Positions 6,209 through 37,326 of a stretch of 42,054 nt of DNA are shown here, one piece after another. The stretch spans positions 1 to 42,054 of the forward strand of contig CAMLMQ010000006.1 in the NCBI GenBank assembly GCA_946481135.1. Direction: 5' to 3'. Both the position numbers and the translations under genes were made by a program. Under the pieces are notes generated by a model, which worked only from the letters and a program-made list of their open reading frames with translations, was not told the origin of the DNA and ran no database searches. Position 1 is the stretch's first letter. Every line of letters starts with the position of its first letter. The stretch comes from an uncultured Microbacteriaceae bacterium (GTDB lineage Bacteria > Actinomycetota > Actinomycetes > Actinomycetales > Microbacteriaceae).

Positions 6209-7015
6209 CTACAGCCCGAGTCCTTCGAATGCGATCGTTGGCAGATCGACCGCGCCGGCGCCCCCGTCCGCTACGATCACGGCGCCCGTGACATACGAGG
6301 CTTCCGGCGAGAGCAGGAAGCGCGCGACGGCGGCGATCTCCTCGGCTGCGGCCGGTCGGCGGAGCGGGACGTGCCGGGTGGCCTCGGCGTATGCGGCGGC
6401 GACCGTCGGGTGCCCGGCCACGGCGGCGAACTGCTGCATCTCGGCGTCGGCCATCGGGGTCACGGTCCACCCCGGGCAGAGCGCATTGGCGCGCACGCCG
6501 ACTGCGCCGTAGTCTCGCGCCACCGAGCGCATGAGTCCAAGCAGCGCGTGCTTCGCGGTCGTGTAGCCCGCGGTATCCGGCCCGGCCGACAACCCGGCGA
6601 TCGACGACACGATGACGATCGCGCCACGGGACTTGATGAGCGACGGCAGGCTCTCGCGTACCGAGACGAAGGCGGTCGTGAGGTTGGCGTGGAGACTCGC
6701 GGCCCACTCGTCGTCGTGGGTCTCGCCCACAGACGAGAAGCCGTGCCCGCCCGCGTTGGCGACGAGCCGGTCGACTCCGCCGAACCGATCGATCGCGGTC
6801 TCCACGACCCGCCGCATCGAGTCGGGATCGCCCGCATCGGCCTCAACCGCGACCGCGTCAGCGCCTCCCGCGATGCCGCGCAGCTCTTGCGCCGCGCTCT
6901 CGACGACCGCTCCGGTGCGCCCGACGAGCACGACATCCGTGCCGTCGGCCACGAGGCGGCGTGCGATTGCGAGCCCGATCCCCGTGCCGCCACCCGTGAT
7001 CACCGCCGCGGTCAT
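6209..7015 (-). CDS. SDR-family NAD(P)-dependent oxidoreductase
   Basis: Classical short-chain dehydrogenase of 268 residues. It has the Rossmann glycine motif TGGGTGIG (7-14), NAG (87-89), catalytic Asn near 111, Ser138 (VIVSSIAG), Tyr151 and Lys155 (GYTTAKH), and the end segment YVTGAVIVADGG. The start overlaps the stop of the upstream class-III PLP enzyme by four bases (ATGA type), so the two are translationally coupled. The substrate cannot be read from the sequence. Given the preceding kinase and phospho-lyase, it may handle the aldehyde or alcohol they produce (inference). It is the last gene of the minus-strand unit. Confidence 0.9.
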   Translation of the reverse strand: MTAAVITGGGTGIGLAIARRLVADGTDVVLVGRTGAVVESAAQELRGIAGGADAVAVEADAGDPDSMRRVVETAIDRFGGVDRLVANAGGHGFSSVGETHDDEWAASLHANLTTAFVSVRESLPSLIKSRGAIVIVSSIAGLSAGPDTAGYTTAKHALLGLMRSVARDYGAVGVRANALCPGWTVTPMADAEMQQFAAVAGHPTVAAAYAEATRHVPLRRPAAAEEIAAVARFLLSPEASYVTGAVIVADGGAGAVDLPTIAFEGLGL

Positions 7016-8286
7016 GTGGCGGCCTCGGCTTCGAGCGCGCGGTCGAGCGCGGCGATCAGGATGGCGGACTCGTCGGGCCCGAATGGCATCGGCGGTCGGA
7101 TCTTGAGCACTGAGTCGTCGCGCCCGATCCTGCTGATGAGGATGCGATCCGCCTTCACCGCCTCGACGATGCGTTTGGTGCGCGCCGCGTCCGGCGACCC
7201 GTCGGCGCCATTCACGGCGAACCCGGTGAAGAGTCCGGACCCGCGAGCATGACCGATGAAGCCGTAGCGTTCGGCGAGGGCGTCGAGCTCGAACCGCAGC
7301 CCTTCACCGGTGACGCGCGCGCGTTCGACGAGGTGCTCGTCGCGGAGCACATCGAGCACGGCGAGGCCTGCAGCCGACGAGACAGGGTTCCCGCCGAACG
7401 TGTTGAAGTACATGTTGCGGGGCCCGAACTCGTCGAGCAGGGCTGCGGGGAGCACGACACCGCCCAGCGGATGCCCGTTGCCCATCGGCTTTCCCATGGT
7501 CACGAGATCAGGCACGAGTCCGTGAAGCTCATGCCCCCAGAACCGTTCGCCGGTGCGACCGTAGCCCGACTGGACCTCGTCGGCGATGATGAGTCCTCCG
7601 GCGGCGCGCACGCGTTCGACGAACCCCCCGACGTAGCCCTCCGGAAGCACGTTGAGGCCCTCGGTCGAGAACAGTGGGTCGAACAGCCATGTCGCGACGC
7701 CGTGGCCGCTGCGACGCAGCGATTCGATCGCGACATCGACCTCGTCGAGGGCGGTGGCGAGGATCTCGGCGGCCTGTCGGCCCCGGTCCCTTCCGGCGAG
7801 GTCCGGAATGCGGACGGTGCGTACGTTGCTCCCGATTCCTTCGAAGGTCGTGAGACCCGTCGTGAGTCGGGCGAGCTCGATCGTGTGGCCGTGGTAGCTG
7901 AAATCGGAGATCAGGATGCCGTGAGCGCCCGTGTGCTGGTAGGCGATCCGCAGGGCAAGATCGTTCGATTCCGAGCCGCTGTTGGTGAACATGACCCGGT
8001 CGAGGCTCGGCTCGAAGGTCGCGAGGAGGCGTTCGGCATACTCCACGACTCGGTCGTTGAGGTAACGGGTATGGATGTTGAGCCGAGACGCCTGATCGCG
8101 GATCGCCTCCACCACGCGGGGATGGGTGTGCCCCACGTGGGGCACGTTGTTGTAGCCGTCGAGATAACGCTCCCCGCGCACGTCGGTCAGCCAGAGCCCC
8201 GCAGCGCTCACAAATTCGAGCGGCTCGTCGTAGAACAAGGGCGAGTAGGGCCCGATCGTCGCAGCGCGCCGTTGCCACGTCGTCAT
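7012..8286 (-). CDS. class-III PLP enzyme, amino-alcohol phosphate phospho-lyase type
   Basis: PLP-dependent fold-type I protein of 424 residues. The PLP lysine is K266 in VTMGKPMGNGHP and the cofactor aspartate is D236 in IIADEVQSGYGRTG. Ordinary annotation would say aminotransferase class III, but YNNVPHVGHTHPRVV (45-59), TMGKPMGNGHP, YFNTFGGNPVS and LKIRPPMPF match what I remember of human ETNPPL and PHYKPL, which do not transaminate. They eliminate phosphate and ammonia from phosphoethanolamine or phosphohydroxylysine to give an aldehyde. The neighbouring kinase (4-base overlap at 8283-8286) is the partner such an enzyme needs. Exact substrate unknown. An omega-aminotransferase remains the alternative. 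Confidence 0.85.
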   Translation of the reverse strand: MTTWQRRAATIGPYSPLFYDEPLEFVSAAGLWLTDVRGERYLDGYNNVPHVGHTHPRVVEAIRDQASRLNIHTRYLNDRVVEYAERLLATFEPSLDRVMFTNSGSESNDLALRIAYQHTGAHGILISDFSYHGHTIELARLTTGLTTFEGIGSNVRTVRIPDLAGRDRGRQAAEILATALDEVDVAIESLRRSGHGVATWLFDPLFSTEGLNVLPEGYVGGFVERVRAAGGLIIADEVQSGYGRTGERFWGHELHGLVPDLVTMGKPMGNGHPLGGVVLPAALLDEFGPRNMYFNTFGGNPVSSAAGLAVLDVLRDEHLVERARVTGEGLRFELDALAERYGFIGHARGSGLFTGFAVNGADGSPDAARTKRIVEAVKADRILISRIGRDDSVLKIRPPMPFGPDESAILIAALDRALEAEAAT

Positions 8287-9320
8287 CGGGATGCCTCCGT
8301 GACTCGACTACGGGGCGACGACCAGCCCGTCTCACCGCTCGCCAGATAGGTCGCGGCCGCGTCGATCACCCACGGGGCAATCACCTGCTCGTGGAAGTCG
8401 CTCGTGGGGTCGCCCGGCCGGTCGGCGGCCCAGCCGAGATAACTGAGTCCGCGAGCGAGCAGGAGGGCGTGCCACGCGCGCACGTCGGGCAGCGGTCGCA
8501 CGGTCTCGTAGCCGGCCGCCATCGCGGCGATCAGCCGCGCGCCATCGGGATGCCGAGTGCACCAGAAGGCGGGGGTGGCGAGGTCGAAGAGATACCAGCC
8601 CAAACCCGAGTCGTCGAAGTCGAGCGCGACGAGCCCCTCCTCGGTGACGAGGACGTTCTCGAACGAGAAGTCGGCGTGGATGACGCCGAAGCAGTCGGGC
8701 GTCCGCGGTAGCGCGGCCAGCGAGCGTCCGACCTGTTCTTCGGCCCGGTCGAGCGTGCGTCGGTCGGACTCGGAGAGCGACGGCAGGCGAGAGGCGCGCC
8801 CCCAGAGCGCGCCGGGGCCCGCGAGCCCGTCAGCATCCCAGGCCGCGCGTGCGTACCCGTCGGGGGTTCCGGTCTCGGCGATCGTATGCATGCGCGCCAT
8901 GAGGCGGCCGAGCGCGCGGAGCCACTCGTCGGCAGGGGCTTCGCCTCCCGTGAAGACCGACCCGACGTCGCCGAACGCCCGACCGCCGTCGACCCAGTCC
9001 TGCATCGTGGCCTGGCGGCGGGCGCCAGAGTCATCGACGATGACCACGACATGCTGGCCGTCGGGAGCGACAGCGGGCGTGGGGACGGCGATGCCGCCGT
9101 CGCGGAACGCGGCGATCGAGGCGATCTCCGATCGTAGTTCGTCGTCGGTGCGATATCCGACGCGGTGCATGCGGAGCGCGCGATCGAGGCCCTCGGCGCG
9201 CACGCGGTACACGTGGTTCTCGCGATGCTTCACGAAGGTGATCTCGGCGTCGGCACACACGCCGAACGCGTCGAGAGCGCGGCGCGCGGCGACCAGTTCC
9301 TGCGGAGGCACGTGGGTCAT
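8283..9320 (-). CDS. APH-fold phosphotransferase, putative amino-alcohol kinase
   Basis: Kinase of 345 residues of the aminoglycoside phosphotransferase/choline kinase superfamily. Catalytic loop HADFSFEN (H215, D217, N222) and the metal-binding DFDD (D234-D237) are intact, and an N-terminal KHRENHVYRV strand fits the nucleotide-binding lobe. I chose the ATG at 9320; the frame continues upstream to 9440 but that part is Arg/Pro-rich and runs through a terminator hairpin. The family includes hydroxylysine kinase, which works with the phospho-lyase PHYKPL; the same pairing here (4-base overlap with the PLP gene) suggests phosphorylation of an amino alcohol. Resistance to aminoglycosides is unlikely from the context. 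Confidence 0.85.
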   Translation of the reverse strand: MTHVPPQELVAARRALDAFGVCADAEITFVKHRENHVYRVRAEGLDRALRMHRVGYRTDDELRSEIASIAAFRDGGIAVPTPAVAPDGQHVVVIVDDSGARRQATMQDWVDGGRAFGDVGSVFTGGEAPADEWLRALGRLMARMHTIAETGTPDGYARAAWDADGLAGPGALWGRASRLPSLSESDRRTLDRAEEQVGRSLAALPRTPDCFGVIHADFSFENVLVTEEGLVALDFDDSGLGWYLFDLATPAFWCTRHPDGARLIAAMAAGYETVRPLPDVRAWHALLLARGLSYLGWAADRPGDPTSDFHEQVIAPWVIDAAATYLASGETGWSSPRSRVTEASR

Positions 9321-9417
9321 GTGCTCGACGCTATTTCGTGGATGCTCACCGCCGCGAGGCCCCGGCGGATGCCTGCGCGCCCTTCCTAGAGCCGGTCGCT
9401 CCTCGACAACGCGGCGA

Positions 9418-9448: not shown

Positions 9449-9459
9449 GTGAGCCGGAC

Positions 9460-10941
9460 CTACTTGCGTGTCATCTCGTCGAAGCGCTCGAGATCGGCTT
9501 CGAGACCCGCGTAGACCTCGGGCTTGCGCGCCTTGAGCACTTGGGCGTAGATGACTCCGGCGACGACGACCACCACGAGCAGCCATGGCAGCACGCGCAC
9601 GTAGAGCGCGTCCGAGCCTGCGACGAAGGTGAAGTTGAAGGCCGCTCCGAGGCTGAACCCGAGGAGGGCGAGGAACCCGAGTCCCGGGGCGATGAGCGTA
9701 CTCCAGAGCCGCTTGTCGCGCTGACGTCGGAAGTGCACCACGACCGAGAGTGCCGCGATCGTCTGCACGATCAGGATTGCGAGCGTCGCGAAGCCGATCC
9801 CGACGGGCACGAGCGTCAGAACGGGCGGAAGGGGGTTGCCGTCGGCGTCTGTCTCGACCGCGACGGCGAAGATTCCGGCGATGAGGAGCCCGAAGAGCAG
9901 GTTCGTGAGCAAGGCCCGCGCGGGAGCGCCGTTGCGGTTCGTGACGGCGAGCCACGACGGCAGGATGCGCGCGCGCCCGAGGGCGTAGAGGTACCGCGCC
10001 GCCGAATTGTGGAATGCGAGTTGCGCGGCGATCATGCTCACGACGAGCAGCACGAGGCCGATGGTCGCGACGATCGGTCCGAGGTAGGTGTCGAGGAGCA
10101 CGAGCACGAGATCTCCCGCCGCCAGGCTCTCGAGCGCGACACCCTGGGCGCCGGGCACACCGGCGGCGCTCACGATCGCCCAGCCGACGATCGCGTGCAG
10201 CACGCCGATCACGATGATGGCGGCGTACGTCGCCCGCGGGACGGTCCGGCGCGGCTCCTTGGCCTCCTCGCTGAAGAGTGCGGTCGCCTCGAAGCCGAGG
10301 AAGAGGGTGGCCACGAGGAGGAACGCGATCCAAACCGAACCGCCAACGAGGATCTCGGGGCTGAGGGCGAGCGTGAAGGCCTGGAGGTCGAACCCTGTCT
10401 GAACGAGCACCGACGCCGCGAACGCGAGGATGATCAGGGTCTCCAGGATGAGTGCGACGCCGAGGATGCGGGCGCTCATGTGGATGCCGGCGCGCGCGAG
10501 CAGGAAGCACCCGATGAAGGCGATCGCGCCGGCGATGAACCAGTGCACTTCGAAGCCGAACAGCGCTGGGAATACGACCGCACCCGTGAAGAAGCCGATC
10601 GTCCCGGTTCCGCCCGCCACGAAGGCGTTGTATCCGAGAGCGGCGATCAGGCCGGTGACAAGGCCGGCGCTGCGGCCGAGGCCCTTGACCGCGATGGCAT
10701 AGAACCCGCCCGCGTTCACGAGCTCCTTCGACATCTGGGCGTACCCGATGGCGAAGAGGAGGAGCGCGATCGCCACCACGATGACCGCGAGAGGGATGCC
10801 GCCCCCGTTGCCGAAGGCGATGGCGAGCGGAAGCACGACGATCGCGCCGGTGAGCGGCGCCACGGCTGCCAGGACGAGGAAGACGATGGAGGGGACACCG
10901 AGTTGGTCGCGCTTGAGCGACTGGGCACTTTCGGAGGACAC
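9460..10941 (-). CDS. APC-family amino acid/amine permease
   Basis: Membrane transporter of 493 residues with about 12-14 hydrophobic helices. The first helix carries the APC feature LVLAAVAPLTGAIVVLPLA, and the loop GFEATALFSEEAKEPRRTVPRA after helix 6 is typical of the amino acid-polyamine-organocation superfamily. The start is a GTG at 10941 with a strong AAAGGAG site upstream on the minus strand. It lies downstream of a TetR gene and upstream of the kinase/phospho-lyase pair, so its cargo is probably the amine or amino alcohol they act on (inference). An ethanolamine-type or aromatic-amine-type permease are both possible. Confidence 0.9.
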   Translation of the reverse strand: MSSESAQSLKRDQLGVPSIVFLVLAAVAPLTGAIVVLPLAIAFGNGGGIPLAVIVVAIALLLFAIGYAQMSKELVNAGGFYAIAVKGLGRSAGLVTGLIAALGYNAFVAGGTGTIGFFTGAVVFPALFGFEVHWFIAGAIAFIGCFLLARAGIHMSARILGVALILETLIILAFAASVLVQTGFDLQAFTLALSPEILVGGSVWIAFLLVATLFLGFEATALFSEEAKEPRRTVPRATYAAIIVIGVLHAIVGWAIVSAAGVPGAQGVALESLAAGDLVLVLLDTYLGPIVATIGLVLLVVSMIAAQLAFHNSAARYLYALGRARILPSWLAVTNRNGAPARALLTNLLFGLLIAGIFAVAVETDADGNPLPPVLTLVPVGIGFATLAILIVQTIAALSVVVHFRRQRDKRLWSTLIAPGLGFLALLGFSLGAAFNFTFVAGSDALYVRVLPWLLVVVVVAGVIYAQVLKARKPEVYAGLEADLERFDEMTRK

Positions 10942-11069: not shown

Positions 11070-11639
11070 TCAGTCCGGCGCGCGGAGCATCGCCCTGAGC
11101 CGTTCCGTGGAGGCCTCGATGTCGTCGGGGGTGGCGGTGTGCATCTGCTGCAGCACGAGGCCGTCGATGGCGGCGGCGACTGCGCGAGCGAGTGCTCTGT
11201 CGGAGCCGTCTGCGCCGAAGCGGGGCAGCATCGCCTGCCAGGCGTCGATGTATGCATCGTACTGACGGACGAGCAGGGGGCGCAGGGAGGGAGTGCGCCG
11301 TGATTCGAGCAGGAGTTCGTACTGGAAGGTCTGGAGCGCGGTGTCGCTTCCGATCAGTCGGCTGACGAGGTCGCGGGCGAGCGGGCGGCTCAGATCCGCC
11401 GATTCTTCGAAGGCCTCGAGAGTGAGGGAGGTGGCGTACTCCAGGGCCGCCTCGATGAGCCCGTCGCGGCTCCCGAAGTGGTGGGCGACGAGGCTGTTGT
11501 TCACGCCCGCGCGCTGAGCGACCGCGCGGTAGGTCAGTCCCCGCAGCCCGCTCTCCGCCACGACATGGATCGCCGCCTCGATCATCGCCTGACGTCCCCG
11601 ACCGTAGGGGATGCGGGCCGGGGCGGACACGCTTCCCAT
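11070..11639 (-). CDS. TetR-family transcriptional regulator
   Basis: Regulator of 189 residues. The N-terminal DNA-binding domain is clear: RQAMIEAAIHVVAESGLRGLTYRAVAQRAG, then NNSLVAHHFGSRDGLIEAAL (about residues 16-65). The rest is an all-helical ligand domain. The gene is divergent from the P450 fusion, and the 47-base gap contains a perfect 16-base palindrome overlapping a promoter, so it probably controls the P450 gene and itself. The permease, kinase, phospho-lyase and SDR genes follow on the same strand. The ligand is not identifiable. Confidence 0.93.
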   Translation of the reverse strand: MGSVSAPARIPYGRGRQAMIEAAIHVVAESGLRGLTYRAVAQRAGVNNSLVAHHFGSRDGLIEAALEYATSLTLEAFEESADLSRPLARDLVSRLIGSDTALQTFQYELLLESRRTPSLRPLLVRQYDAYIDAWQAMLPRFGADGSDRALARAVAAAIDGLVLQQMHTATPDDIEASTERLRAMLRAPD

Positions 11640-11686: not shown

Positions 11687-13840
11687 ATGAGCCGGCGATC
11701 GTTCCTCGATGACATCACGCTCGACGACCTCGAGCGCGATCCCTACCCGATCTACGCGCGCATGCGCGCCGAGGCACCGGTCGCCTGGGTTCCCGCCGCG
11801 GATGTCTGGTTCGTGACCCGGTGGCAGGACTGCTCAGACGTCGGCAATCAGATGTACGGCTTCGTCGCGGCGGCGGGCCACCCCACCGTCGACCGGGTCT
11901 TCAACCGCCCGAACGTCCTCACGACCGACGGCGAACAACACTCCGACCTGCGCGCGGGCATCGATCCTCGCCTCAAGCCGGATGCCGTCACTGCGGTCAT
12001 CGACTCGATCGTGCGTCCGGTTGCCCGACGGCAGCTCGACGCCATCGCGGAGTCCGGTCGCGCCGAGCTCATGTCGACGTACTTCGAACCCGTGAGCGTC
12101 GAGTCGCTGCGACACGTCATGGGACTGGACGCGCTCGTCGATGCCGATACCCTGCGGCGGTGGTTCGCAGGGCTGAACACGGGGATCGCCAACTTCGGAC
12201 TCGATCCGCAGACCTTCGAACAGGCCGACGGCATCTCGCGTGAGATCGACACGGTGGTCTCCCCACTCATCGCCGAATTGTCCGCGCACCCCGACGACTC
12301 GATGATCTCGCACATGATCTGGGCTGGAGTCCGCGACGGTCGGCCCCGCACGCTCGACATGATCATGCCCTCGCTGAAGGTCATTCTGCTAGGCGGGATG
12401 CAGGAACCCGGACACGCGGCCGCGAGCACCCTGCTCGGCCTGTTCACGCGCCCCGACCAACTCGCGCGCGTCGCCGCTCGTCCCGACGAGCTCGCGGCGA
12501 TCGCCGTCAACGAGGGCCTCTGCTGGATCGCACCCATCGGTGCCATCGAACGCGAGGCATCCCGCGACACCGAGGTGTCCGGGGTGCGAATCCCGCGGGG
12601 TGCCATCGTCGAGGTCGTGATCGCATCGGCGAACCGCGACGAGACGCGCTACGACGATCCGGACGTCTTCGATCTCGATCGTGCCACCCGCAACCACCAG
12701 GCGTTCGGTGCGGGTGAGCACTTCTGTGCGGGCCACTTCTTCGCCCGGCAGGTGGAACGCATCATGTTCGAGGAGCTGTTCGGGCGCCTCCCCGGGCTGC
12801 GGCAGCCGGAGGGAGCCCAGGTCAACGTCTCCGGATGGTTCTTCCGCGCCCCCGAGGCCCTCGACGCGGAATGGGATCACGCGAACCCGGCGCGGGAAAC
12901 CATCGTCCTCCCGCTTGGCACCCGGTCGCTCATCGTCTCCAAGGTGCGACGCGAGAGCGAGCACGTTGTCGCGCTCGAGCTGCGCGCTCCCGACGGCGCC
13001 GACCTCCCGGAGTGGAGCCCGGGAGCTCACGTCGACCTCTGGGCGGTCCCCCATCGAGGCGGGCAGTACTCGCTCATCGGCGACCCGGCGGATCGCTCCG
13101 CGTGGCGCGTTGGCGTGCTGCGCGAGGAGGCCAGCCGGGGAGTGTCCCGCACGATCCACGACACCCTTCGCGCGGGCGACCGGATTCCCGTCGGCGGGCC
13201 GCGCAACAACTTCGCCTTGATCGAGGCCGAAGAGTATCTCTTCGTCGCCGGAGGCATCGGGATCACGCCTCTTCTTCCCATGATCGCGGCGGTGGAGGCG
13301 TCCGGCCGGTCCTGGTCGCTGCACTGGGCGACACGAGGTGAGACGGGGCCGTTCGAGTCGTCGCTCGCGGATCGTCCCGAGGTGACCCGCTATCGCGGTG
13401 GAGGCTCGCGCCTCGACCTTCGGGCGATCCTCGCCGACGCGGAGACGCAGACCGCCGTGTACTGCTGCGGGCCCGAGCGCATGCTCGACGAGGTCGAGAC
13501 GATCGGGCGCGAGCTCGGGCTCGACATCCATGTGGAACGCTTCTCGGGAGTCGACGCTGTGCGTGAGGGCGACCGTCCCTTCGAGCTCGAGCTCGCGTCG
13601 ACCGGGGAGCGATTGACGGTCCCGTCGGACCGCAGCGCGCTCGCTGTCCTTCAGGATCGCGGCATCCAGGTGCTCACTGCGTGCGGCGAGGGCAACTGCG
13701 GCTCGTGTGAGACGCGAGTTCTCGCGGGAGCCATTGAGCACCGCGACGTCCTGCTCACCCCGGAGCAGCGCGCGGCCGGCGATCGGATGATGGTCTGCGT
13801 GTCGCGCTCGGCGGGCGGGCCGATCGTGCTCGATCTCTGA
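11687..13840 (+). CDS. self-sufficient P450: GcoA/CYP255-like heme domain fused to a phthalate dioxygenase reductase-like module
   Basis: A 717-residue monooxygenase. Residues 1-400 are a P450: I-helix segment LLGGMQEPGHAAAST (235-248), heme loop AFGAGEHFCAG with Cys347. From memory the domain resembles GcoA, the CYP255A guaiacol O-demethylase. Residues 405-717 are a PDR-type reductase: flavin segment QYSLIGDP (about 460-467), NAD-binding AGGIGITPLLPM (521-532) and a plant-type [2Fe-2S] cluster C666, C671, C674, C704 at the C-terminus. The linker is about 10 residues. Odd: the ExxR arginine is Cys279 (EGLCW) and the flavin RxYS arginine is Gly459. Demethylation of a methoxylated aromatic is inferred, not shown. 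Controlled by the divergent TetR. Confidence 0.9.
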   Translation: MSRRSFLDDITLDDLERDPYPIYARMRAEAPVAWVPAADVWFVTRWQDCSDVGNQMYGFVAAAGHPTVDRVFNRPNVLTTDGEQHSDLRAGIDPRLKPDAVTAVIDSIVRPVARRQLDAIAESGRAELMSTYFEPVSVESLRHVMGLDALVDADTLRRWFAGLNTGIANFGLDPQTFEQADGISREIDTVVSPLIAELSAHPDDSMISHMIWAGVRDGRPRTLDMIMPSLKVILLGGMQEPGHAAASTLLGLFTRPDQLARVAARPDELAAIAVNEGLCWIAPIGAIEREASRDTEVSGVRIPRGAIVEVVIASANRDETRYDDPDVFDLDRATRNHQAFGAGEHFCAGHFFARQVERIMFEELFGRLPGLRQPEGAQVNVSGWFFRAPEALDAEWDHANPARETIVLPLGTRSLIVSKVRRESEHVVALELRAPDGADLPEWSPGAHVDLWAVPHRGGQYSLIGDPADRSAWRVGVLREEASRGVSRTIHDTLRAGDRIPVGGPRNNFALIEAEEYLFVAGGIGITPLLPMIAAVEASGRSWSLHWATRGETGPFESSLADRPEVTRYRGGGSRLDLRAILADAETQTAVYCCGPERMLDEVETIGRELGLDIHVERFSGVDAVREGDRPFELELASTGERLTVPSDRSALAVLQDRGIQVLTACGEGNCGSCETRVLAGAIEHRDVLLTPEQRAAGDRMMVCVSRSAGGPIVLDL

Positions 13841-20415: not shown

Positions 20416-20444
20416 GGACTCCTCGTTCTTGCGGCGTATCCCAA

Positions 20445-20456
20445 ATCGTATATCAT
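20445..20456. promoter_or_regulatory. ATCGTATATC element upstream of the hpa operon
   Basis: ATCGTATATCAT lies 30 bases upstream of the HpaG-RraA start, in the gap shared with the divergent flavin monooxygenase. A related element is found about 30 bases upstream of two other minus-strand genes (35599-35608 and 37357-37366). It can be read as a GntR operator or, on the minus strand, as a -10 element (TATACG). A partial second copy, CGTATC, is at 20435-20440. Confidence 0.4.
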
Positions 20457-20520
20457 TCTTTTCCATGTGGCAACGCGCCCTCGAGCGCGGCCATCACGCG
20501 AGTTCGTTCGGGAGGTCGTC

Positions 20521-27297: not shown

Positions 27298-27307
27298 GAG
27301 GTGACAC

Positions 27308-27338
27308 GTGGTGCCGCGCATCCCCCGCGCGGCACCAC
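27308..27338 (+). terminator. intercistronic stem-loop after the binding-protein gene
   Basis: GTGGTGCCGCGC (27308-27319) and its exact complement (27327-27338) form a 12-base-pair stem with a 7-base loop, 10 bases after the binding-protein stop and 23 bases before the ATPase GTG. Placed like the hairpins that stabilise binding-protein messages or partly terminate before transporter genes, it probably sets a high binding protein to transporter ratio. Confidence 0.7.
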
Positions 27339-27361
27339 CTGCGCCACGAAAGGACATCGGC

Positions 27362-28849: not shown

Positions 28850-28869
28850 ACCCATCGAAGAGACCCGAT

Positions 28870-29911: not shown

Positions 29912-30355
29912 ATGACCGAACCCACGCACCCCGGGCTCCGATTCAGCTTCCGCATCGTCGCGGACGTCGACCACCCGATCCCGCTCGAGAAACGAGACGC
30001 GGAGGAGCTCGTCTATCTGCCGATCGTCGGAGGCACTGTGGAGGGCGACCTCGTCGGCGAGGTGCTCACCGGAGGCGCCGATTGGGCGCGTGTCCGGGCC
30101 GATGAGACATTCGCGCTCGAGGCCCGGTACCTGTTCCGCACGTCGGAGAGTGAGGTGGTCGACGTCGTCAACGTCGGCTATCTCCGCCACGACGAGGGGC
30201 GGAACGGGCCGATGGAGGAGATGACCTACTTCCGCTGCACTCCGAGGTTCCGCACCGCCGCGCCGCGGCTGCAGTGGCTCACGCGGTCGGTCTTCGTCGC
30301 GAGCGCGCGCACGTTCGTCACACGGTCGGTGATCGACGTCTACGAGGTGCTCTGA
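29912..30355 (+). CDS. DUF3237 family protein
   Basis: A 147-residue beta-rich protein with the DUF3237 pattern: FSFRIVADVDHPI, then VGGTVEGDLVGEVLTGGADWARVRAD and LEARYLFRTSESEVVDVVNVGYL, and the end VASARTFVTRSVIDVYEVL. The fold of the family is a lipocalin-like barrel of unknown function, often found beside catabolic genes for aromatic or terpenoid compounds. It is the last gene of the amidohydrolase-ABC unit, 28 bases after the permease, and converges on the amine oxidase gene. A decayed relative appears near 37700. Confidence 0.88.
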   Translation: MTEPTHPGLRFSFRIVADVDHPIPLEKRDAEELVYLPIVGGTVEGDLVGEVLTGGADWARVRADETFALEARYLFRTSESEVVDVVNVGYLRHDEGRNGPMEEMTYFRCTPRFRTAAPRLQWLTRSVFVASARTFVTRSVIDVYEVL

Positions 30356-30374: not shown

Positions 30375-32357
30375 TCAGGCGCAGCCGCAGGTATCGGAGC
30401 CCGCGCACGAGCACCGCGCATGCCCGCGCGACGACCGGTGGTCGACCGGGAGATCGAGTGCGGGATTGGTGTCGAGGAATCCGTAGGGCTTGAACCAGAA
30501 CCCGGCGTAGTCGACCGGCATGATCGGCCAATCCTCGGGTCGCGGAATGTGGGTGAGTCCGAAGGTGTGCCAGAGCACGAGGTCGGCTCCGTCGAGCGAC
30601 CGGTCACGAGCCGCGTACGCGGGCAGGCCGGCACCCCCTTGGTGCGCGTTGGGGTAGCGGCCGGCCGGCCACTGCTCATCGGGTGCATAGACCGTCGCCC
30701 ACAGATGCTTCGTCGCGAACGCGGCACGTGCGGCGACCGATGAAGCGGGGTCTGCCTGCAGCAGCGCGGTCGGCTGGGGGATCAGGTGGTAGGCCGTCGG
30801 CTTGCCGAGGCGGTTGCGGCGCGACGTCGAGCGCACCTCCCACACGCGCGCGACGGATGTGTCGGCCTCGCGTTGGGCGGCCTTCTCGGTCGCGAGCGGC
30901 GTCTCGGTCCACCCGAAGGCGTTCCCGAACGGATTCTCCGGTCCCATCGGGATGCGCGCGGCGTCCACTTCGACGAGTGCGTTGTCCTCGCCGTCGATCG
31001 CGACGTCGAGTCGGGCGCTGAAGAGGTGCTGGTGGACGGGAGCGAACACGCCGGGCGCGATCTCCGTCGCGTGGCGCTGTGTCGTCCCGGGAGTCCCGGC
31101 CCCCACGAAGACGATCCCCGTCGCTTTCGCCTCGACCTGGATGGACCCGTCGAGGTAGAAGTACCAGAAGAATCCGTAGTCGTAGTTGCCGATGGTCGTG
31201 AAATACGAGACGACGAGGCGCCGTGAGCGGCGCACCTCCGCGCGCCCCTCCAGATCGGTGTGCTTCCAGAGGATCCCGTAGTCCTCCTCGTGCATGCAGA
31301 CCGCGTTGGGGATGCGCACGGGGTTGCCGTGGTCGTCGGCAACGTGTCCGTCGAAGTAGTGGATGACGCCCAGGCAATCGCACCCGAGCTCCAGATGGTT
31401 GGCGTTCTTGCCGAGCAGGTACTCGCCCGCGTCGAAGTAGCTGATCCAGAAGCGGGTGGGGGACGTGTCGCCGTACGGCACCACCATCTCCGGGACACTC
31501 CCGCGGTGCAGCACCGACCTTCCGTCGAAGGAAACCTGGTTGAGCACGAGGCCCTCACGCGCGTTGAAGCCCACCCGCATCGACCACTTCTCCCACGTGA
31601 CGAGGGAGCCATCGACGTGGAAGCTGGGCCCCTCCGGCTGGGTGATCTCGATCGGCTTGAGGCTGGTGCGCGCCGGCCCCACTGCGTCCGCACCGTAGTT
31701 GCCGCCGTCTGCGGGCACGGGCACGTCTCCGTCGTCGGTGATGCCGATGACACGGTTCTCGATCAGGTCGACGTGCACGATGAGACCCTCGACCGGGTGC
31801 GCCCACGGTGAGTCGTCGGGGCTGTCGCGCAGGAACGTCAGGGATCGGATGACGCGCCGCCCGACCTCTTCGGCGCGGCCGACGAAGCCCGGGGCGAGAG
31901 GCGCACAGAACGCGAGATCCCGCCGGTCATCGAGGCCGCGTCGCGCCATCGCGGCCTGCCACTCGGGCGATGCCTTGACGATGTCCGCAGCACGGTCGTA
32001 CTCCTCGAACAGGTACTGCGGTTGTCCGTAGGGCGGACGGGTGACGTCGAGGGATCTCTGCTCCACGACGGTCTTTCGGGTGACCGAGACGGTGGCCTCG
32101 GTCACGGCGCCCGAGACCGTGTCGAGGAGCGTCACGTCGACGCGCCGCTCGAGGGGGCGACCCGGCCATCCGGAGAGTTCCTCCTTGGTGGGTTCGGACG
32201 GAAGGAGCATGGGAACGCGCACGGTCTCGCCGAGCAGACCTGAGTCGGCGAGTACGTCGCGCGCGGTCGCGATCTCGTCCGGGGTCAGCGGATCGAGCGG
32301 GTGAGCGTCGCCCGTCCCGATCGGGGGTACGTCGTGATGGTGATGCGTCATCGTCAT
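30375..32357 (-). CDS. copper-containing primary amine oxidase (tyramine/phenylethylamine type)
   Basis: Oxidises a primary amine to aldehyde, ammonia and hydrogen peroxide. 660 residues with all features of topaquinone oxidases: catalytic base D309 (YFDAGEY), cofactor precursor Y392 in TIGNYDYGF, copper ligands H442 and H444 (VHQHLFS) and H603 (LTHIPRPED). The C-terminus NPALDLPV is typical of actinobacterial tyramine and histamine oxidases, but it continues into an unusual cysteine-rich tail, CSCAGSDTCGCA. No signal peptide, so cytoplasmic. A His-rich N-terminus (THHHHD) is also odd. Start 32357 or 32351. Product would be 4-hydroxyphenylacetaldehyde if tyramine is the substrate (inference). 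Downstream of a TetR gene and its operator. Confidence 0.94.
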   Translation of the reverse strand: MTMTHHHHDVPPIGTGDAHPLDPLTPDEIATARDVLADSGLLGETVRVPMLLPSEPTKEELSGWPGRPLERRVDVTLLDTVSGAVTEATVSVTRKTVVEQRSLDVTRPPYGQPQYLFEEYDRAADIVKASPEWQAAMARRGLDDRRDLAFCAPLAPGFVGRAEEVGRRVIRSLTFLRDSPDDSPWAHPVEGLIVHVDLIENRVIGITDDGDVPVPADGGNYGADAVGPARTSLKPIEITQPEGPSFHVDGSLVTWEKWSMRVGFNAREGLVLNQVSFDGRSVLHRGSVPEMVVPYGDTSPTRFWISYFDAGEYLLGKNANHLELGCDCLGVIHYFDGHVADDHGNPVRIPNAVCMHEEDYGILWKHTDLEGRAEVRRSRRLVVSYFTTIGNYDYGFFWYFYLDGSIQVEAKATGIVFVGAGTPGTTQRHATEIAPGVFAPVHQHLFSARLDVAIDGEDNALVEVDAARIPMGPENPFGNAFGWTETPLATEKAAQREADTSVARVWEVRSTSRRNRLGKPTAYHLIPQPTALLQADPASSVAARAAFATKHLWATVYAPDEQWPAGRYPNAHQGGAGLPAYAARDRSLDGADLVLWHTFGLTHIPRPEDWPIMPVDYAGFWFKPYGFLDTNPALDLPVDHRSSRGHARCSCAGSDTCGCA

Positions 32358-32392: not shown

Positions 32393-32983
32393 TCAGCGCG
32401 CGGTCCGCGCAAGCCACGGAGATATCCAGGTCTCGACGACCCGCCGGTGGTCCGCCGCCGTGACGTCGTCCACCACCTCCACCACTTGCTGACCGAGCGT
32501 GAGGGCATGGAACACCTCGGCGAGTCCGTCGATCGGAGCATCCGGACGCAGATCTCCATCGGCCACCGCCTCGGCCAACGCCTCGGCGACGTCCGGCGCC
32601 CACAACTCGCGGTCCCGGGGCGCCTGCGCCGACTCTCCGAGTGCCACACGACCCCACAATCCGACGATGAGAAACGCCTCATCCCGCGTGTCGGGGCGTA
32701 GGGGGAGTAGCTCTTCGACCATCGCGTCGATCCGCGCCAGTCCGCGTCGGCCGCTCGTGGCTGCCCGGATGCGGGCCATCGTGCGGCGCGCGACCTCATG
32801 GCCGGCGTCGTCGACGATCGCATCGAAGTTGTCGTAGTAGTGCCAGAGCGATCCGACGGACACTCCGAGCTCGCCGGCCACTGCACGCGAGGTGACCTGA
32901 GCGAGGCCGGCGCGCGCCGTGACTCGGATGACCGCGTCGACGATCGCGCGACGTCGTGCGTCGTGATCCACGATCTTGGGCAC
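32393..32983 (-). CDS. TetR-family transcriptional regulator
   Basis: Regulator of 196 residues, with the DNA-binding domain at residues about 9-55: RRRAIVDAVIRVTARAGLAQVTSRAVAGELGVSVGSLWHYYDNFDAI. The remainder is helical and contains no recognisable ligand motif. It lies directly upstream of the copper amine oxidase on the same strand; a 30-base inverted repeat starts one base after its stop codon. It is divergent from the aldehyde dehydrogenase at 33150, so it may regulate both. BetI/RutR-like TetR proteins often sense amines or their products; that is a weak guide only. Confidence 0.92.
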   Translation of the reverse strand: MPKIVDHDARRRAIVDAVIRVTARAGLAQVTSRAVAGELGVSVGSLWHYYDNFDAIVDDAGHEVARRTMARIRAATSGRRGLARIDAMVEELLPLRPDTRDEAFLIVGLWGRVALGESAQAPRDRELWAPDVAEALAEAVADGDLRPDAPIDGLAEVFHALTLGQQVVEVVDDVTAADHRRVVETWISPWLARTAR

Positions 32984-33149: not shown

Positions 33150-34559
33150 ATGACCGACTACTCTGAGCTCATCTCGCGCGTCGAGGCGCCGGAAGGCTCC
33201 GGCCGGGATATCCCGGACGCCGCGACCCGCGCGACCATCGGGCGAGCACCGGAGGCGAGCATCGCCGACCTGGATGCCGCTGTCTCGCGCGCGAAGGCGG
33301 CGCAGCCGGCGTGGCACGCGCTCGGCCACGAAGCGCGGATCCGCTTGTTGAACGCCGCCGCCGATCGGGTCGACGCGTCCGCGGAGGCTCTCGCGACGCT
33401 GCTTTCGCGCGAGCAGGGCAAGCCGCTCAACGGACCGAATGCGCGCTTCGAGGTGGGCGCGTGCTCGGCCTGGCTGCGCGCCACGGCCGCGACTCCGCTC
33501 GAACCGCAGGTCGTGATCGATGACGGAGAGTCGCGCGCAGAGCTCGTCTACAGGCCGGTCGGGGTCGTCGGTGCGATCGGCCCGTGGAACTGGCCCATGA
33601 TGATCGCGATCTGGCAGATCGCTCCCGCCCTGCGGATGGGCAACACGGTCGTGGTCAAACCGTCGGAGTTCACGCCGCTCAGCGTCCTGGCGCTCATCTC
33701 GGTTCTCAACGATGTGCTTCCGCCCGATGTGCTCATCGGCGTGTCGGGAGGCCGCGAGGTCGGTGCTCGCCTCGCGGCACATCCGGATGTCGACAAGGTG
33801 ATGTTCACCGGATCGACCGCGACCGGTCGCAAGATCATCGAGAGCTCGGCGGGCAACCTCGCACGCTTGACGCTTGAGTTGGGTGGCAACGACGCCGGCA
33901 TCGTGCTTCCCGGAAGTGACCCGGCCACGATCGCGGAGGGCCTCTTCTGGGGCGCCTTCATCAACACGGGCCAGACCTGTGCCGCGCTCAAGCGGCTCTA
34001 CGTTCACGACTCGATCTACGACGAGGTGGTGGAGGCACTCGCCGCCGTGGCTCGCACGACGCCCATGGGTAACGGGCTCGACGAGGCCAACGTGCTCGGG
34101 CCGCTCCAGAACCCGCAGCAGTTCGAGATCGTGAAGCGTCTGGTCGAGGACGCGGCCGTGAACGGGGGCCGCATCGTCACGGGCGGCGCACCGGCGAGCG
34201 ACCTGGGCGAGACGTTCTTCCCGATCACGCTCGTGGCCGACGTCGCCGATGGGGTCGCCCTCGTCGATGAGGAGCAATTCGGACCCGCGCTGCCGATCAT
34301 CCGGTACCACGATGTCGAGGACGCCATTCGCAGCGCGAACCGCCTGGACGTCGGTCTCGGCGCATCCGTGTGGGGGCCCGACCCGGCCGAGAATCGCGCA
34401 GTCGCCGAGCGCATCGAGGCGGGGACGGTCTGGATCAACTCGCATGGTGGCGTGCATCCGATGATCCCCTTCGGCGGTGTCAAGGGGTCGGGGTACGGCC
34501 TCGAGTTCGGAGTCGAAGGCCTCAAGGCCGTGGCGGTTCCGCAGGTCATCAACGGCTGA
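33150..34559 (+). CDS. aldehyde dehydrogenase, probably arylacetaldehyde dehydrogenase
   Basis: NAD(P)-dependent aldehyde dehydrogenase of 469 residues. N147 in GPWNWPMM, E243 in LELGGND and nucleophile C277 in TGQTCAALKR are intact, with PFGGVKGSGYGLEFG near the end. The CAALKR surrounding and the overall type recall the group of aldehyde dehydrogenases annotated with benzaldehyde or aminoaldehyde substrates. It lies between the amine oxidase/TetR pair and a FeaR-like AraC gene; in E. coli the equivalent trio is tynA, feaB and feaR, where FeaB oxidises phenylacetaldehyde. Ribosome binding site GGAGGA 8-13 bases upstream. Confidence 0.88.
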   Translation: MTDYSELISRVEAPEGSGRDIPDAATRATIGRAPEASIADLDAAVSRAKAAQPAWHALGHEARIRLLNAAADRVDASAEALATLLSREQGKPLNGPNARFEVGACSAWLRATAATPLEPQVVIDDGESRAELVYRPVGVVGAIGPWNWPMMIAIWQIAPALRMGNTVVVKPSEFTPLSVLALISVLNDVLPPDVLIGVSGGREVGARLAAHPDVDKVMFTGSTATGRKIIESSAGNLARLTLELGGNDAGIVLPGSDPATIAEGLFWGAFINTGQTCAALKRLYVHDSIYDEVVEALAAVARTTPMGNGLDEANVLGPLQNPQQFEIVKRLVEDAAVNGGRIVTGGAPASDLGETFFPITLVADVADGVALVDEEQFGPALPIIRYHDVEDAIRSANRLDVGLGASVWGPDPAENRAVAERIEAGTVWINSHGGVHPMIPFGGVKGSGYGLEFGVEGLKAVAVPQVING

Positions 34560-34601: not shown

Positions 34602-35570
34602 TCACGTCCCGCGAGACCCGCCCAGTGCGCTGGCCCGGACGTCGCGCGGGGAAGCCCCATAGGTGGCCTTGAACAGTCGGGAGAAGTGCGCCGCGTCGAC
34701 GAGACCCCATCGGGCCGCGATCGCGCTGACGGCGTGATCCGCGAAGACGATGTCGGTGAGTTCGCGACGACAGTGCTCGAGGCGGCGGGTGCGGATCCAG
34801 GCCGAGACCGTCGTGCCCTCGGAGTGGAAGAGCGCGTGGAGCAGTCGGGTCGAAATGAAGTGCGCGCTGGCGATGCGAGCGGGGTCGAGCGTCGGGTCGG
34901 CGAGATGCTGGTCGATGTACGACCGGATGCGCAGGAAGAGCCGCCCACGATGCCCCGACTCCAGTCGCGTCCCGAGCTCTTGCGCGAGCATCGTCTCGAC
35001 GACGTCGATCGCGTTGCGCGCGAGGCGGAGTCCGATCGCGCTGTCGGTGGCGGTGAGGCCGACGGTGAGCTTCTCGAGGAACGACGCGACGAGCGGAGTG
35101 AGTCCCGACCCGCGGGCGAATCGCACGGCCGTCAACTGAGCGATCGTCTCGGCCGTGAGGTCGAGCTGATCGCGCGGGAACATGAGCACCATCATGCGCA
35201 TGTCTCCCTCGAAGACGAGCGAGTAGGGCCGTGCGGTGTCGTAGAGGGCGATGTCGCCGGGCCGCAGCAGCGCCTCTCTGTCGTCCTGAATGAGGAGGCC
35301 CGTTCCGGCGAGTTGCAGACTCACCTTCAGATGGGGACGCTCGCCGCGCGCGACGAGTTCCGCGGTGCGCTCGACCGAGTGCGGAGTGGCGGCGATCTCC
35401 GACACGTGGATGTCGGGCAGGTCTACGCCGCGGAGGCGACCTGTGAACGTCTCCGGCCGATCGGCGTGCAGCGCGAGCGGCACGAACGTCTGGCTCGCGG
35501 CCGCGCGGAAGGCGGTGAAGTCCAATTGGGTCAGGTCGGCGGCCTGGGGAACCGTCGCACGTGTCGCCAT
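34602..35570 (-). CDS. AraC-family transcriptional regulator, FeaR-like
   Basis: A 322-residue regulator with an N-terminal AraC-type ligand domain (AraC_binding_2 type: FVPLALHADRPETFTGRL, then VSLQLAGTGLLIQDDREALLRPGDIALYDTARPYSLVF) and a C-terminal double helix-turn-helix (about residues 215-315: RIRSYIDQHLADPTLDPARIA, then AIAARWGLVDAAHFSRLFKATYGASPRDVR). This is the architecture of FeaR, the activator of amine oxidase and phenylacetaldehyde dehydrogenase genes in E. coli. It converges on the dehydrogenase gene and is 10 bases downstream of the ThDP enzyme on its own strand, so the two are probably co-transcribed. ATG at 35570; the open frame extends upstream without support. Confidence 0.9.
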   Translation of the reverse strand: MATRATVPQAADLTQLDFTAFRAAASQTFVPLALHADRPETFTGRLRGVDLPDIHVSEIAATPHSVERTAELVARGERPHLKVSLQLAGTGLLIQDDREALLRPGDIALYDTARPYSLVFEGDMRMMVLMFPRDQLDLTAETIAQLTAVRFARGSGLTPLVASFLEKLTVGLTATDSAIGLRLARNAIDVVETMLAQELGTRLESGHRGRLFLRIRSYIDQHLADPTLDPARIASAHFISTRLLHALFHSEGTTVSAWIRTRRLEHCRRELTDIVFADHAVSAIAARWGLVDAAHFSRLFKATYGASPRDVRASALGGSRGT

Positions 35571-35580: not shown

Positions 35581-37326
35581 TCATCGAGTGAGCCAAACCA
35601 TATACGATCCTTGACCGCTCTGCCAGCCTTCAGGCCGTCGATGGCGGAACTGCGGTCTCGAGCGCGGGGGGTGCGAAGGGCGGCCGGCCTCGAGAATCTC
35701 GGTCTGGTAAGGCGCGACGACGGTCTCGGAGACCCGCAGGTCGAGCAGCAGGAACGCCCGTTCGTCGACGGCTCGGCTGGTCCACTCCGCGAGCGCGTCG
35801 AGATCTTCGGCGCGTCGGACGACGATCGACTCGGCGCCCACCGCGGCGCCGAGCGCGGCGAAGTCGACCTCAGGGATACGCATCGGATCCTGAGCGAGAC
35901 CTTGGGCGCCGTAGAGGGTGAGTTCCGCGCCGTACGCGGCGTCGTTCCACACCACCGCAATGCCCCGGCCTTGCGCGACACGCACCGCGGACTCGAGATC
36001 CGCGAGCGCCATGAGTCCGCCGCCGTCGCCCGTCGTGACGACGATCGTCGATTCGGGTTTCGCGAGCGCTGCCCCCACCGCGCTCGGCCATCCCAGACCG
36101 ATCGACTGGTACGCGGTGCCGACCATCAGCATCCGGTCGGGTGCGGCGATGGGCCAGTACATGTTGGCCCAGCCGATGAAATGCCCGCCGTCGGAGACGA
36201 CGACGCGGTCTCGGGGCAGGAGGTCGGCCAGTCGGGCCGCCGCGGAGCGAGGGTCGAGGCGACCGTCAGGCGCGACGCCGGTGCCGGGATCTCGGTGCCG
36301 TGCGGCCGCGAGATCAACGTCGTCGCGCCACCGTGCGACGGGGGCGTCCTGCGCACGGAGCTCGTCGAGAAGGCGTCGCACGACCCGACTCGCGTCGCCG
36401 CGGAGGAAGGTGCCGACGTGCGGGTGCGTCGCGACGGGCGTGACATCGATCTGCACGACGTCGGAACCGGGGGAGAAAAGTTCGCCGAATCGCATCGTGA
36501 ACTGGTTGAGTGACGCGCCGACCGCGACGACGATGTCGGCGTCGCGCACGAGGGACATCGCCCCCTCCGCACCGAAGCCGCCCGCGACGCCGAGATCGCG
36601 GTCGCGGTCGGTGAAGAGGCCGCATCCGAGCGCGGTCGTCGCCGTCAGCGCACCGGTCGCGGAGGCGAGTTCGTTGAGCAGGCTGCCGGCTCCCGCGAGC
36701 CAGGCTCCCCGCCCCGCCAGGATGAGAGGGCGCCGGGCACGGGCGAGTCGAGCGGCGACGTCCGCGATGCGGTGACGAGTGAATGCGGAGGGCTCGAGCG
36801 GTGGGGGGACCTCACGGGATGCCACGCTCGCCGGCGTGCCAGCTTCGAGGGCAGCGATATCGTACGGCAGAGCCAGGACCGCCGGCACTCGGTAGGTGAG
36901 CGCGTGCGCTACCGCGATGGCGACGGTGGTGGCGGCGTCGTCGCGGCCGACCGTGTAGGTGCGCGCGCCGACCGCGGACGCGAGCGCGCTCTGGTCGACG
37001 TCCCACGGACGCGGGCCGGACGTGGGGTGATCGCCGACGACGAGCACGAGCGGGATGCGGGCCATCGCCGACTCGGCGAGCGCCGTGAGGGTGTTGGTGA
37101 AGCCGGCGCCATACGTCGTGGTCGCCACAGCGAGTCCGCCTCCCGCGCGGTAATGCGCATCCGCGGCGACGACTCCGGCTGCTTCGTGCCGTACGGCGAC
37201 GAATCTCGCCTCGGTCGACGTCTCCCATGCGTCGAGGAAGTGCGCGTTGCCTTGCCCCATGACACCGAACACCACGGAGATGTGCTGCGCGAGCGCGGTG
37301 GCGACGTGGGCGGAGACCGTGGACAT
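35581..37326 (-). CDS. thiamine diphosphate-dependent 2-oxo-acid decarboxylase or acetolactate synthase-like enzyme
   Basis: ThDP enzyme of 581 residues with the three-domain layout. The cofactor-activating glutamate is in AVRHEAAGVVAADAHYR (about residue 45), and the ThDP/Mg motif starts GDGGGLMALADLESAV and ends VVWNDAAYG. The subgroup includes benzoylformate, arylpyruvate and sulfopyruvate decarboxylases as well as acetolactate synthases. In this island a decarboxylase giving an arylacetaldehyde from an arylpyruvate is the attractive reading (inference). The start at 37326 has GAGAGG upstream; a frame-compatible start at 37377 would include the TATA-like element and is less likely. The C-terminus is unusually Arg/Pro/Gln-rich. 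Confidence 0.88.
   Translation of the reverse strand: MSTVSAHVATALAQHISVVFGVMGQGNAHFLDAWETSTEARFVAVRHEAAGVVAADAHYRAGGGLAVATTTYGAGFTNTLTALAESAMARIPLVLVVGDHPTSGPRPWDVDQSALASAVGARTYTVGRDDAATTVAIAVAHALTYRVPAVLALPYDIAALEAGTPASVASREVPPPLEPSAFTRHRIADVAARLARARRPLILAGRGAWLAGAGSLLNELASATGALTATTALGCGLFTDRDRDLGVAGGFGAEGAMSLVRDADIVVAVGASLNQFTMRFGELFSPGSDVVQIDVTPVATHPHVGTFLRGDASRVVRRLLDELRAQDAPVARWRDDVDLAAARHRDPGTGVAPDGRLDPRSAAARLADLLPRDRVVVSDGGHFIGWANMYWPIAAPDRMLMVGTAYQSIGLGWPSAVGAALAKPESTIVVTTGDGGGLMALADLESAVRVAQGRGIAVVWNDAAYGAELTLYGAQGLAQDPMRIPEVDFAALGAAVGAESIVVRRAEDLDALAEWTSRAVDERAFLLLDLRVSETVVAPYQTEILEAGRPSHPPRSRPQFRHRRPEGWQSGQGSYMVWLTR
35599..35608. promoter_or_regulatory. ATCGTATATG element upstream of the AraC gene
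   Basis: Read on the minus strand this is ATCGTATATG, 29 bases before the AraC start. It overlaps the last codons of the ThDP enzyme, so coincidence is possible. It matches the elements at 20445 and 37357. Confidence 0.3.

Follow-up and report, generated by a model that had tools for sequence, protein, structure and literature searches.

A kinase and phospho-lyase gene pair co-inherited with homoprotocatechuate genes: a candidate second arm of aromatic amine degradation in a Microbacteriaceae island

Results

A 31-kb island with a kinase/phospho-lyase pair, an amine oxidase and hpa genes

We analyzed a 42,054-nucleotide stretch of DNA (the window) from an uncultured Microbacteriaceae bacterium (contig CAMLMQ010000006.1, assembly GCA_946481135.1). 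Positions 6209..37326 hold a 31-kb island in which genes for a kinase and a class III pyridoxal 5'-phosphate (PLP) enzyme lie near a copper amine oxidase (CuAO) gene and the hpa genes for homoprotocatechuate meta-cleavage. The original prediction read this set as a two-armed pathway for aromatic biogenic amines. All the genes it named are present close to where it had placed them, with open frames and fitting families, and the island is confirmed as a real gene set. The assignments are borne out by the listing of open reading frames (ORFs), by G+C content at the codon positions and by family searches (NCBIfam for 29 ORFs of the window, Pfam for 10). The G+C content of the window is 66.7-73.2% in 2-kb steps.

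Five genes run consecutively on the minus strand. A TetR regulator (11070..11639, from profiles) lies upstream of an APC-family permease (9460..10941, from profiles; 52% identical to the permease AAur_pTC20098 of plasmid pTC2). They are followed by an APH-fold kinase (8283..9320), the class III PLP enzyme (7012..8286) and, as the last gene of the set, a short-chain dehydrogenase/reductase (SDR; 6209..7015) recognized by family profiles. The kinase and lyase genes overlap by 4 bp, as do the lyase and SDR genes. The PLP enzyme matches Pfam Aminotran_3 at 203.3 bits (cut-off 30.5) and has the PLP-lysine motif GKPMGNGHP at residues 265-273. Its best solved matches are A1RDF1 of Paenarthrobacter aurescens TC1 (5g4i, 511.7 bits) and the human ethanolamine-phosphate phospho-lyase (6tor, 301 bits), with the next structure at 163 bits, which agrees with its original description as a phospho-lyase-type enzyme. 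The closest lyase found is from Leifsonia sp. TF02-11 (70%). Profiles and a structure match identify the kinase, whose closest solved relative is the aminopropanol kinase 6ef6. As this is a 1,2-amino-alcohol kinase, action of the window kinase on an unrelated substrate is less likely.

The hpa genes are contiguous and also on the minus strand. Profiles assign them to an HpaG-like protein (18928..20466), a GntR regulator (18242..18967), HpaE (5-carboxymethyl-2-hydroxymuconate semialdehyde dehydrogenase, 16708..18225), HpaD (homoprotocatechuate 2,3-dioxygenase, 15542..16696), an HpaH-type 2-oxo-hept-4-ene-1,7-dioate hydratase (14749..15534) and an HpaI-type 4-hydroxy-2-oxoheptanedioate aldolase (13958..14764). 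HpaD (427.4 bits against a cut-off of 321.4) and HpaE (647.2 against 638.35) score above their equivalog cut-offs, HpaH (340.3 against 351.5) and HpaI (299 against 368.8) below theirs. The HpaG-like protein has a single FAH domain fused to an RraA-like domain, and so neither two FAH domains nor the HpaG1/G2 form. A two-domain HpaG of E. coli is described in PMC12718150. On the plus strand follow a MobA-type FAD hydroxylase of the phenol 2-monooxygenase/3-hydroxybenzoate hydroxylase family (20521..22431, from profiles and a structure match) and a succinate-semialdehyde dehydrogenase (SSADH; 22433..23914), for which SSADH is the best family in the profile search at 528.1 bits, against a cut-off of 646.35. 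No HpaB or HpaC family was found among the 29 ORFs scanned. Since the closest structure of the MobA-type enzyme is 3-hydroxybenzoate hydroxylase (608 bits), conversion of 3- or 4-hydroxyphenylacetate to homoprotocatechuate is a natural guess for its role.

The CuAO (30375..32357, minus strand) scores 848.7 bits against the primary-amine oxidase profile (cut-off 651). Its closest structures are phenylethylamine oxidases, and its topaquinone (TPQ) site is intact, with the N-Y-D motif at residue 391 and H-x-H at 442. Near it, profiles identify an aldehyde dehydrogenase (ALDH; 33150..34559, plus strand), the proposed common step for arylacetaldehydes, and an AraC regulator (34602..35570, minus strand). 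The regulator scores 154 bits against the FeaR profile, below the equivalog cut-off of 199, and the FeaR-like gene of the original prediction is thus FeaR-like and not a FeaR equivalog. The ALDH is 67% identical to AAur_pTC20102, the gene after the lyase on pTC2. In Leifsonia an ALDH 79% identical to that of the window lies directly upstream of the kinase and lyase genes in the same direction, with a CuAO and a FeaR-like gene adjoining; this order fits one aldehyde dehydrogenase serving both arms.

The crystallized relative A1RDF1 lies in the same kind of island

The pTC2 match of the lyase is locus AAur_pTC20101, which we take to be A1RDF1 from the strain, the kind of gene and the accession. 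About 17 kb of the plasmid around it encode a PheA/TfdB-type FAD hydroxylase, an HpaG-like protein, a GntR regulator, HpaE, HpaD, HpaH, HpaI and SSADH. The remainder comprises a feaB-named ALDH, an SDR, a permease, the kinase (named homoserine kinase), a TetR regulator, a second ALDH and an AraC regulator. The HpaD there has no annotated gene row and was recognized by a DNA match (76%). The TetR regulator upstream of the window permease weakly resembles the one adjoining the pTC2 lyase (35% over 88 residues).

The lyase is co-inherited with HpaD in two families

To determine whether the pair travels with the hpa genes, as originally predicted, we surveyed 299 Microbacteriaceae genomes (the Leifsonia family); genomes and loci are denoted below by G and L numbers. 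Lyase matches split sharply, with nine genomes at 57-70% (at least 480 bits) and the rest at 48% or less. HpaD is encoded in 107 of the 299 genomes and in all nine carriers of the close lyase. Genomes with only the distant paralogue encode HpaD at the base rate (8/29). In eight of the nine carriers the lyase and HpaD lie 12-50 kb apart on one contig, G067 being the exception at 1.9 Mb. CuAO (at 1e-150) is present in 73 of the 299 genomes, and five of the nine carriers have it no more than 12 kb from the lyase; G034 and G309 have a 40% CuAO relative about 8 kb away. As controls we took 20 stretches around distant paralogues, 17 from the 29 paralogue-only genomes and three from carriers (G034, G016 and G067), around their second copies. 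They contain no match to HpaD, HpaG, HpaH, HpaI, CuAO or FeaR. General families were not counted as hpa genes; these are an HpaE-like ALDH (38-40%) in L122-L125 and L128, SSADH (64-66%) in L122-L124 and a 40% P450 match in L116.

The Rhizobiaceae sample comprised 247 genomes, searched with the lyase and HpaD of a Rhizobium. HpaD is present in 63 genomes overall and in all 26 lyase carriers. The two genes are within 7 kb of each other in 13 carriers, on separate contigs in 11, and distant on one contig in two. The pair is thus found together with the hpa genes in both families, and the refuting outcome named in the original prediction, a pair inherited apart from these genes, was not observed. 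A test of 20 genomes (HpaD at 1e-40) found HpaD in the 16 actinobacterial genomes G001-G016 and in the one Rhizobium. Among the 13 of these actinobacteria for which both positions are known and which are outside the family draw, four carry both genes on one contig, separated by 7.5-55 kb. For the Micrococcaceae (197 genomes of the Arthrobacter family, 22 of them lyase carriers), CuAO was sought in carriers only and was present in all 21 searched. It lies within 10 kb of the lyase in five, in one of which (G323) the CuAO frame contains TAA. A single ORF of 788-819 codons holds both kinase and lyase in eight of 20 Micrococcaceae loci.

The nine Microbacteriaceae islands were compared over stretches of unequal length. 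Gene order is shuffled but the set recurs. The kinase adjoins the lyase in all nine, and six have a FeaR-like AraC gene no more than 1.3 kb from the lyase. Relatives of the amidohydrolase family 3 protein (51-57%) occur in seven islands, as do those of the CuAO (five at 59-70%, two at 40%), while relatives of the SDR (51-61%) occur in six. The MobA-type hydroxylase and the ALDH (66-79%) are each found in five.

Beyond the Actinobacteria, the aromatic partners differ. In Phyllobacterium the order is AraC, ALDH, tyramine oxidase, TetR, APC permease, lyase, kinase and SDR. Plasmids of Rhizobium binae, R. ruizarguesonis and Rhizobium NZLR1 carry hpa genes headed by lyase and kinase, and two near-identical Sphingobium plasmid regions have lyase, kinase and SDR near homoprotocatechuate (hpc) genes. 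Mesorhizobium AR07 encodes permease, lyase and kinase followed by paaX, pcaF and paaABCDE. In a proteobacterial bin (L050), lyase and kinase are accompanied by homogentisate dioxygenase and a fumarylacetoacetase-type gene. Among 15 plasmid records, chosen by similarity, spread and kinship, eight have aromatic or amine-oxidase genes near the lyase, six do not and one is unannotated. No such genes lie near the lyase in Pseudomonas mandelii, Haematobacter, Pantoea, Azospirillum, Novosphingobium or Rhodococcus RHA1. The RHA1 record holds a cluster of microcompartment shell genes with a kinase and a class III enzyme.

Two further observations concern loci of this kind. On the P. mandelii plasmid (L134), a clade-B lyase and a phosphotransferase gene are found amid iron ABC transporter, TonB receptor and FecR genes, and that pair is possibly linked to siderophores or iron. 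A Tm-1-like/UPF0261 protein accompanies lyase and kinase in three alphaproteobacterial loci (L133, L162 and L164) and in L050.

All aromatic linkages seen are on one side of the lyase tree

A lyase tree of 142 rows was built by a quick method with SH-aLRT support and a limit of 350 residues, below which no row fell. A branch with support 100 splits it into 56 and 86 rows, the window being among the 86. The 56 include the RHA1 microcompartment homologue and carry no aromatic-context label, all 27 such labels being among the 86. These labels were set by hand over stretches of unequal length; a uniform 10-kb count was made alongside. An HpaB, HpaD, HpaF, HpaH or HpaI-type gene or an amine-oxidase gene lies within 10 kb of the lyase in 21/86 rows versus 0/56. 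Among rows that have 9 kb or more on each side, the count is 14/59 versus 0/44; leaving aside the window and the plasmid records, it is 13/76 versus 0/50 (P = 0.0016).

The kinase is within 2.5 kb of the lyase in 78 of the 86 rows and in 8 of the 56. Residue 209 is Glu in 86/86 rows on the window's side and Asp in 55/56 on the other, and the motif NNVxHVGH is present in 70/86 and 0/56 rows, respectively. The human phospho-lyase shares both NNVxHVGH and GKPMGNGHP with the window lyase and has Gly at the position of Glu209. As it too carries NNVxHVGH, the His50 motif is no marker of an aromatic substrate. Glu209 and His50 were considered as specificity residues and are retained as a lead.

Other genes of the island and its left edge

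Genes beyond those in the original prediction are a thiamine-diphosphate (TPP) enzyme, an amidohydrolase family 3 protein, an ABC importer, a DUF3237 protein, two TetR regulators and one GntR regulator. The TPP enzyme (35581..37326, minus strand, from its profile) belongs to the acetolactate-synthase/2-oxo-acid decarboxylase superfamily. Its closest structures are acetolactate synthases, and relatives of about 48% lie near the lyase in four Leucobacter loci (L005, L007, L015 and L016). As an arylpyruvate decarboxylase it would be a possible third source of arylacetaldehyde. The amidohydrolase family 3 protein (24620..26269, plus strand, from profiles) could be a hydrolase of N-acyl amines, such as N-acylated arylethylamines. 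For the RbsB/RbsA/RbsC-type importer (three genes, 26302..29883, plus strand, from a profile), islands G252 and L010 each hold relatives of the full gene set. The DUF3237 protein (29912..30355, plus strand) was assigned by profiles, and the second TetR regulator (32393..32983, minus strand) by its profile.

A MoaF-type gene, the pTC2 copy of which matches PF10703/PF17409, has relatives in five of the nine Microbacteriaceae islands. MoaF-family genes lie near AraC and lyase genes at L081 (257-1051 and 24616-25428) and in islands G001, G034, G271, G007 and G016. MoaF is part of the monoamine regulon of Klebsiella, from which it takes its name.

The left side of the island is marked by an insertion at the end of a tRNA-Ala gene. 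At 4416-5798 an IS481-family transposase gene directly follows tRNA-Ala(ggc), the final 15 bases of which are repeated at 5784-5798. Inverted arms of 21 nt (90%) are located at 4494-4514 and 5724-5744. By eye, L113 (2951-11699), from a relative, resembles the same chromosomal site, with proB, proA, an RsfS-like gene and tRNA-Ala (8700-8775). A distant paralogue of the lyase and a GntR-like gene are found there instead.

A P450, its reductase and a 2Fe-2S domain are fused in one protein (11687..13840, plus strand, from profiles and motifs), with the heme motif at residue 340 and the FeS motif at 666. The P450 part is closest to 8u09 and to GcoA, of the aromatic O-demethylase type. GcoAB is a two-subunit form, while in the window protein the reductase is fused and not a separate subunit.

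Discussion

Two proposed arms to one arylacetaldehyde

The comparisons show that an amino-alcohol-type kinase/phospho-lyase pair is co-inherited with arylacetate degradation and amine oxidation. We consider it likely, with a probability of roughly 0.75, that the island channels aromatic amines toward the cleavage of homoprotocatechuate and that the pair is an octopamine-type 1-aryl-2-aminoethanol kinase and phospho-lyase. The two-arm interpretation in the original prediction is supported; we infer which substrate the pair uses, how the reactions proceed and what the SDR, hydroxylase and amidohydrolase do.

In the first arm, arylethylamines such as tyramine and dopamine would be converted to arylacetaldehydes by the CuAO. 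In the second, the APC permease would import a primary-amine 1-aryl-2-aminoethanol of the octopamine, noradrenaline or phenylethanolamine type, and the APH-fold kinase would phosphorylate its benzylic hydroxyl. The lyase would then form a PLP aldimine with the amine, remove a proton from the adjoining carbon and expel phosphate, and hydrolysis of the resulting enamine would yield ammonia and the same arylacetaldehyde as the first arm. The ALDH would oxidize this to the arylacetate, the MobA-type hydroxylase would complete the catechol, and HpaD, HpaE, HpaG, HpaH, HpaI and SSADH would carry out the remaining degradation. Established PLP chemistry takes a 1-aryl-2-aminoethanol to an arylacetaldehyde in a single step, whereas ketones would be expected from 2-aryl-2-aminoethanols and aryl-alaninols. 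Octopamine, noradrenaline and 2-phenylethanolamine would fit as substrates. The lyase is not expected to accept N-methylated amines (synephrine and adrenaline), whose secondary amine is unable to form the aldimine. By analogy with the aminoacetone system, the SDR may serve to reduce an aryl aminoketone or to process the opposite enantiomer.

Several observations weigh against this assignment. It was made by sequence comparison, and A1RDF1 is reported (Cuetos 2016) to be active on ethanolamine phosphate. In the window's clade, 65 of 86 rows have no counted hpa or amine-oxidase gene within 10 kb (27 of the 86 having less than 9 kb on one side), so its members may differ in substrate. Among 30 neighbor proteins from eight clade loci, clear aromatic-ring genes were seen only in L050. 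The co-occurrence P-values (8e-5 and 3e-18) are too small because genomes within a family are related, and the distant-paralogue control covers the Microbacteriaceae only. The HpaD frame of G252, one of the nine Microbacteriaceae carriers, contains TAG. In the Micrococcaceae there is no enrichment (HpaD in 19/22 carriers versus 180/197 overall) because HpaD is nearly universal there, and presence or absence in that family was dropped as evidence; linkage of lyase and HpaD within 10 kb was seen only in G323 (8 kb) among the matches listed. No HpaD match at 1e-40 was found in G017, G019 or G020 (Nocardioides, Marinobacterium and Nitrincola); other hpa genes are present at L048 (G019) and L051 (G020). 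A single SDR family across the islands is ruled out by the 28% identity of the window and pTC2 copies. The P450 fusion was dropped as a conserved part of the pathway, since it was found in none of 80 HpaD-bearing Microbacteriaceae relatives (80 of the 107, searched at 1e-100 without a positive control, which makes this a weak negative). This leaves the homovanillate idea without comparative support.

Alternative readings of the pair

The foremost alternative, still an unlikely one, keeps the aromatic pathway and changes its entry compound to an N-acylated amine, or to an aminoketone reduced by the SDR, in place of free octopamine-type amines. The SDR (6/9) and the amidohydrolase (7/9) recur in the Microbacteriaceae islands with no role in the simple scheme, and such upstream steps could make the amino alcohol. 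Even so, the substrate of kinase and lyase would remain a 1-aryl-2-aminoethanol, as PLP chemistry leads from this shape directly to an arylacetaldehyde, and we found no direct evidence of an upstream compound. We also regard as improbable that the second arm is an aliphatic amino-alcohol route of the aminoacetone-utilization type, for 1-amino-2-propanol/aminoacetone or ethanolamine, that merely lies beside the hpa genes. Here the SDR would interconvert aminoacetone and aminopropanol, the kinase would phosphorylate the latter and the lyase would release propionaldehyde. The kinship of the kinase to 6ef6 and the reported activity of A1RDF1 on ethanolamine phosphate speak for it. So does the match of SDR, kinase, class III PLP enzyme, permease and ALDH to the Aut cluster described in PMC6620236. 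Against it, no microcompartment shell family was found among the window ORFs scanned (29 by NCBIfam, 10 by Pfam) and the only lyase seen with a microcompartment belongs to the opposite clade. All the hpa, paa and amine-oxidase linkages seen are on the window's side of the tree, and every carrier in two families has HpaD (26/26 and 9/9).

It seems very improbable that the pair consists of an ordinary transaminase (the class III enzyme) and an unrelated resistance-type phosphotransferase (the kinase). The annotations are generic, and most characterized class III enzymes are transaminases according to PMC8154272, but two phospho-lyases top the structure matches at 512 and 301 bits before a drop to 163. 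Nor would an unrelated kinase be expected within 2.5 kb of the lyase in 78/86 rows and in the same ORF in 8/20 Micrococcaceae loci.

Relation to known systems

The octopamine-type pathway that we favor has parts that are known in kind. HpaD, HpaE, SSADH and the amine oxidase are common to the window and the known hpa meta pathway with tyramine/dopamine oxidation. The window differs in its FAH-RraA HpaG, its MobA-type hydroxylase, the absence of HpaBC among the ORFs scanned and the extra kinase-lyase arm. Human ETNPPL, the second-best structure, shares the lyase motifs and differs at Glu209. The closest solved relative, A1RDF1 (PDB 5g4i/5g4j), differs in its reported activity on ethanolamine phosphate, although its gene, like that of the window's lyase, is part of an aromatic island of this kind. 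We know of no test of A1RDF1 on aryl substrates. The Aut/AAUM aminoacetone-aminopropanol microcompartment cluster of Rhodococcus and Mycobacterium has an SDR, a kinase, a class III PLP enzyme, a permease and an ALDH (PMC6620236). Like it, the window has kinase, class III PLP enzyme, SDR and permease at 6209-10941, with 6ef6 as the kinase fold match. The Aut/AAUM cluster differs in having shell proteins and an aliphatic substrate, and its RHA1 homologue (one shell-associated row) is in the other lyase clade.

Bacteria have been known for decades to grow on octopamine and noradrenaline. A 1987 paper reportedly described a hydro-lyase that acts without ATP, with 4-hydroxyphenylacetaldehyde as net product; the second arm has the same proposed net product but uses a kinase and a phospho-lyase. 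To our knowledge no gene has been assigned to the hydro-lyase activity. Among the open-licence literature matches listed, we found no gene for removal of the beta-hydroxyl from octopamine or noradrenaline, and no title on a kinase or phospho-lyase for octopamine, noradrenaline or phenylethanolamine. The aromatic use, the kinase-lyase fusion and the link to hpa, paa or homogentisate genes are likewise absent from these matches, which is weak evidence of novelty.

The hpa, paa and homogentisate routes are all entered via an arylacetate. It is fairly likely that a widespread aryl-aminoethanol kinase/phospho-lyase pair feeds whichever of these routes its host has, and that A1RDF1 is such an enzyme, assigned by a side activity on a small molecule. 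If so, the pair would explain how the beta-hydroxyl is removed when bacteria grow on octopamine and noradrenaline, and A1RDF1, the structure of which has long been public, would gain a proposed natural substrate. In bacteria of soil and in those associated with plants, the two genes would also serve as a marker for the degradation of catecholamines and phenylethanolamine.

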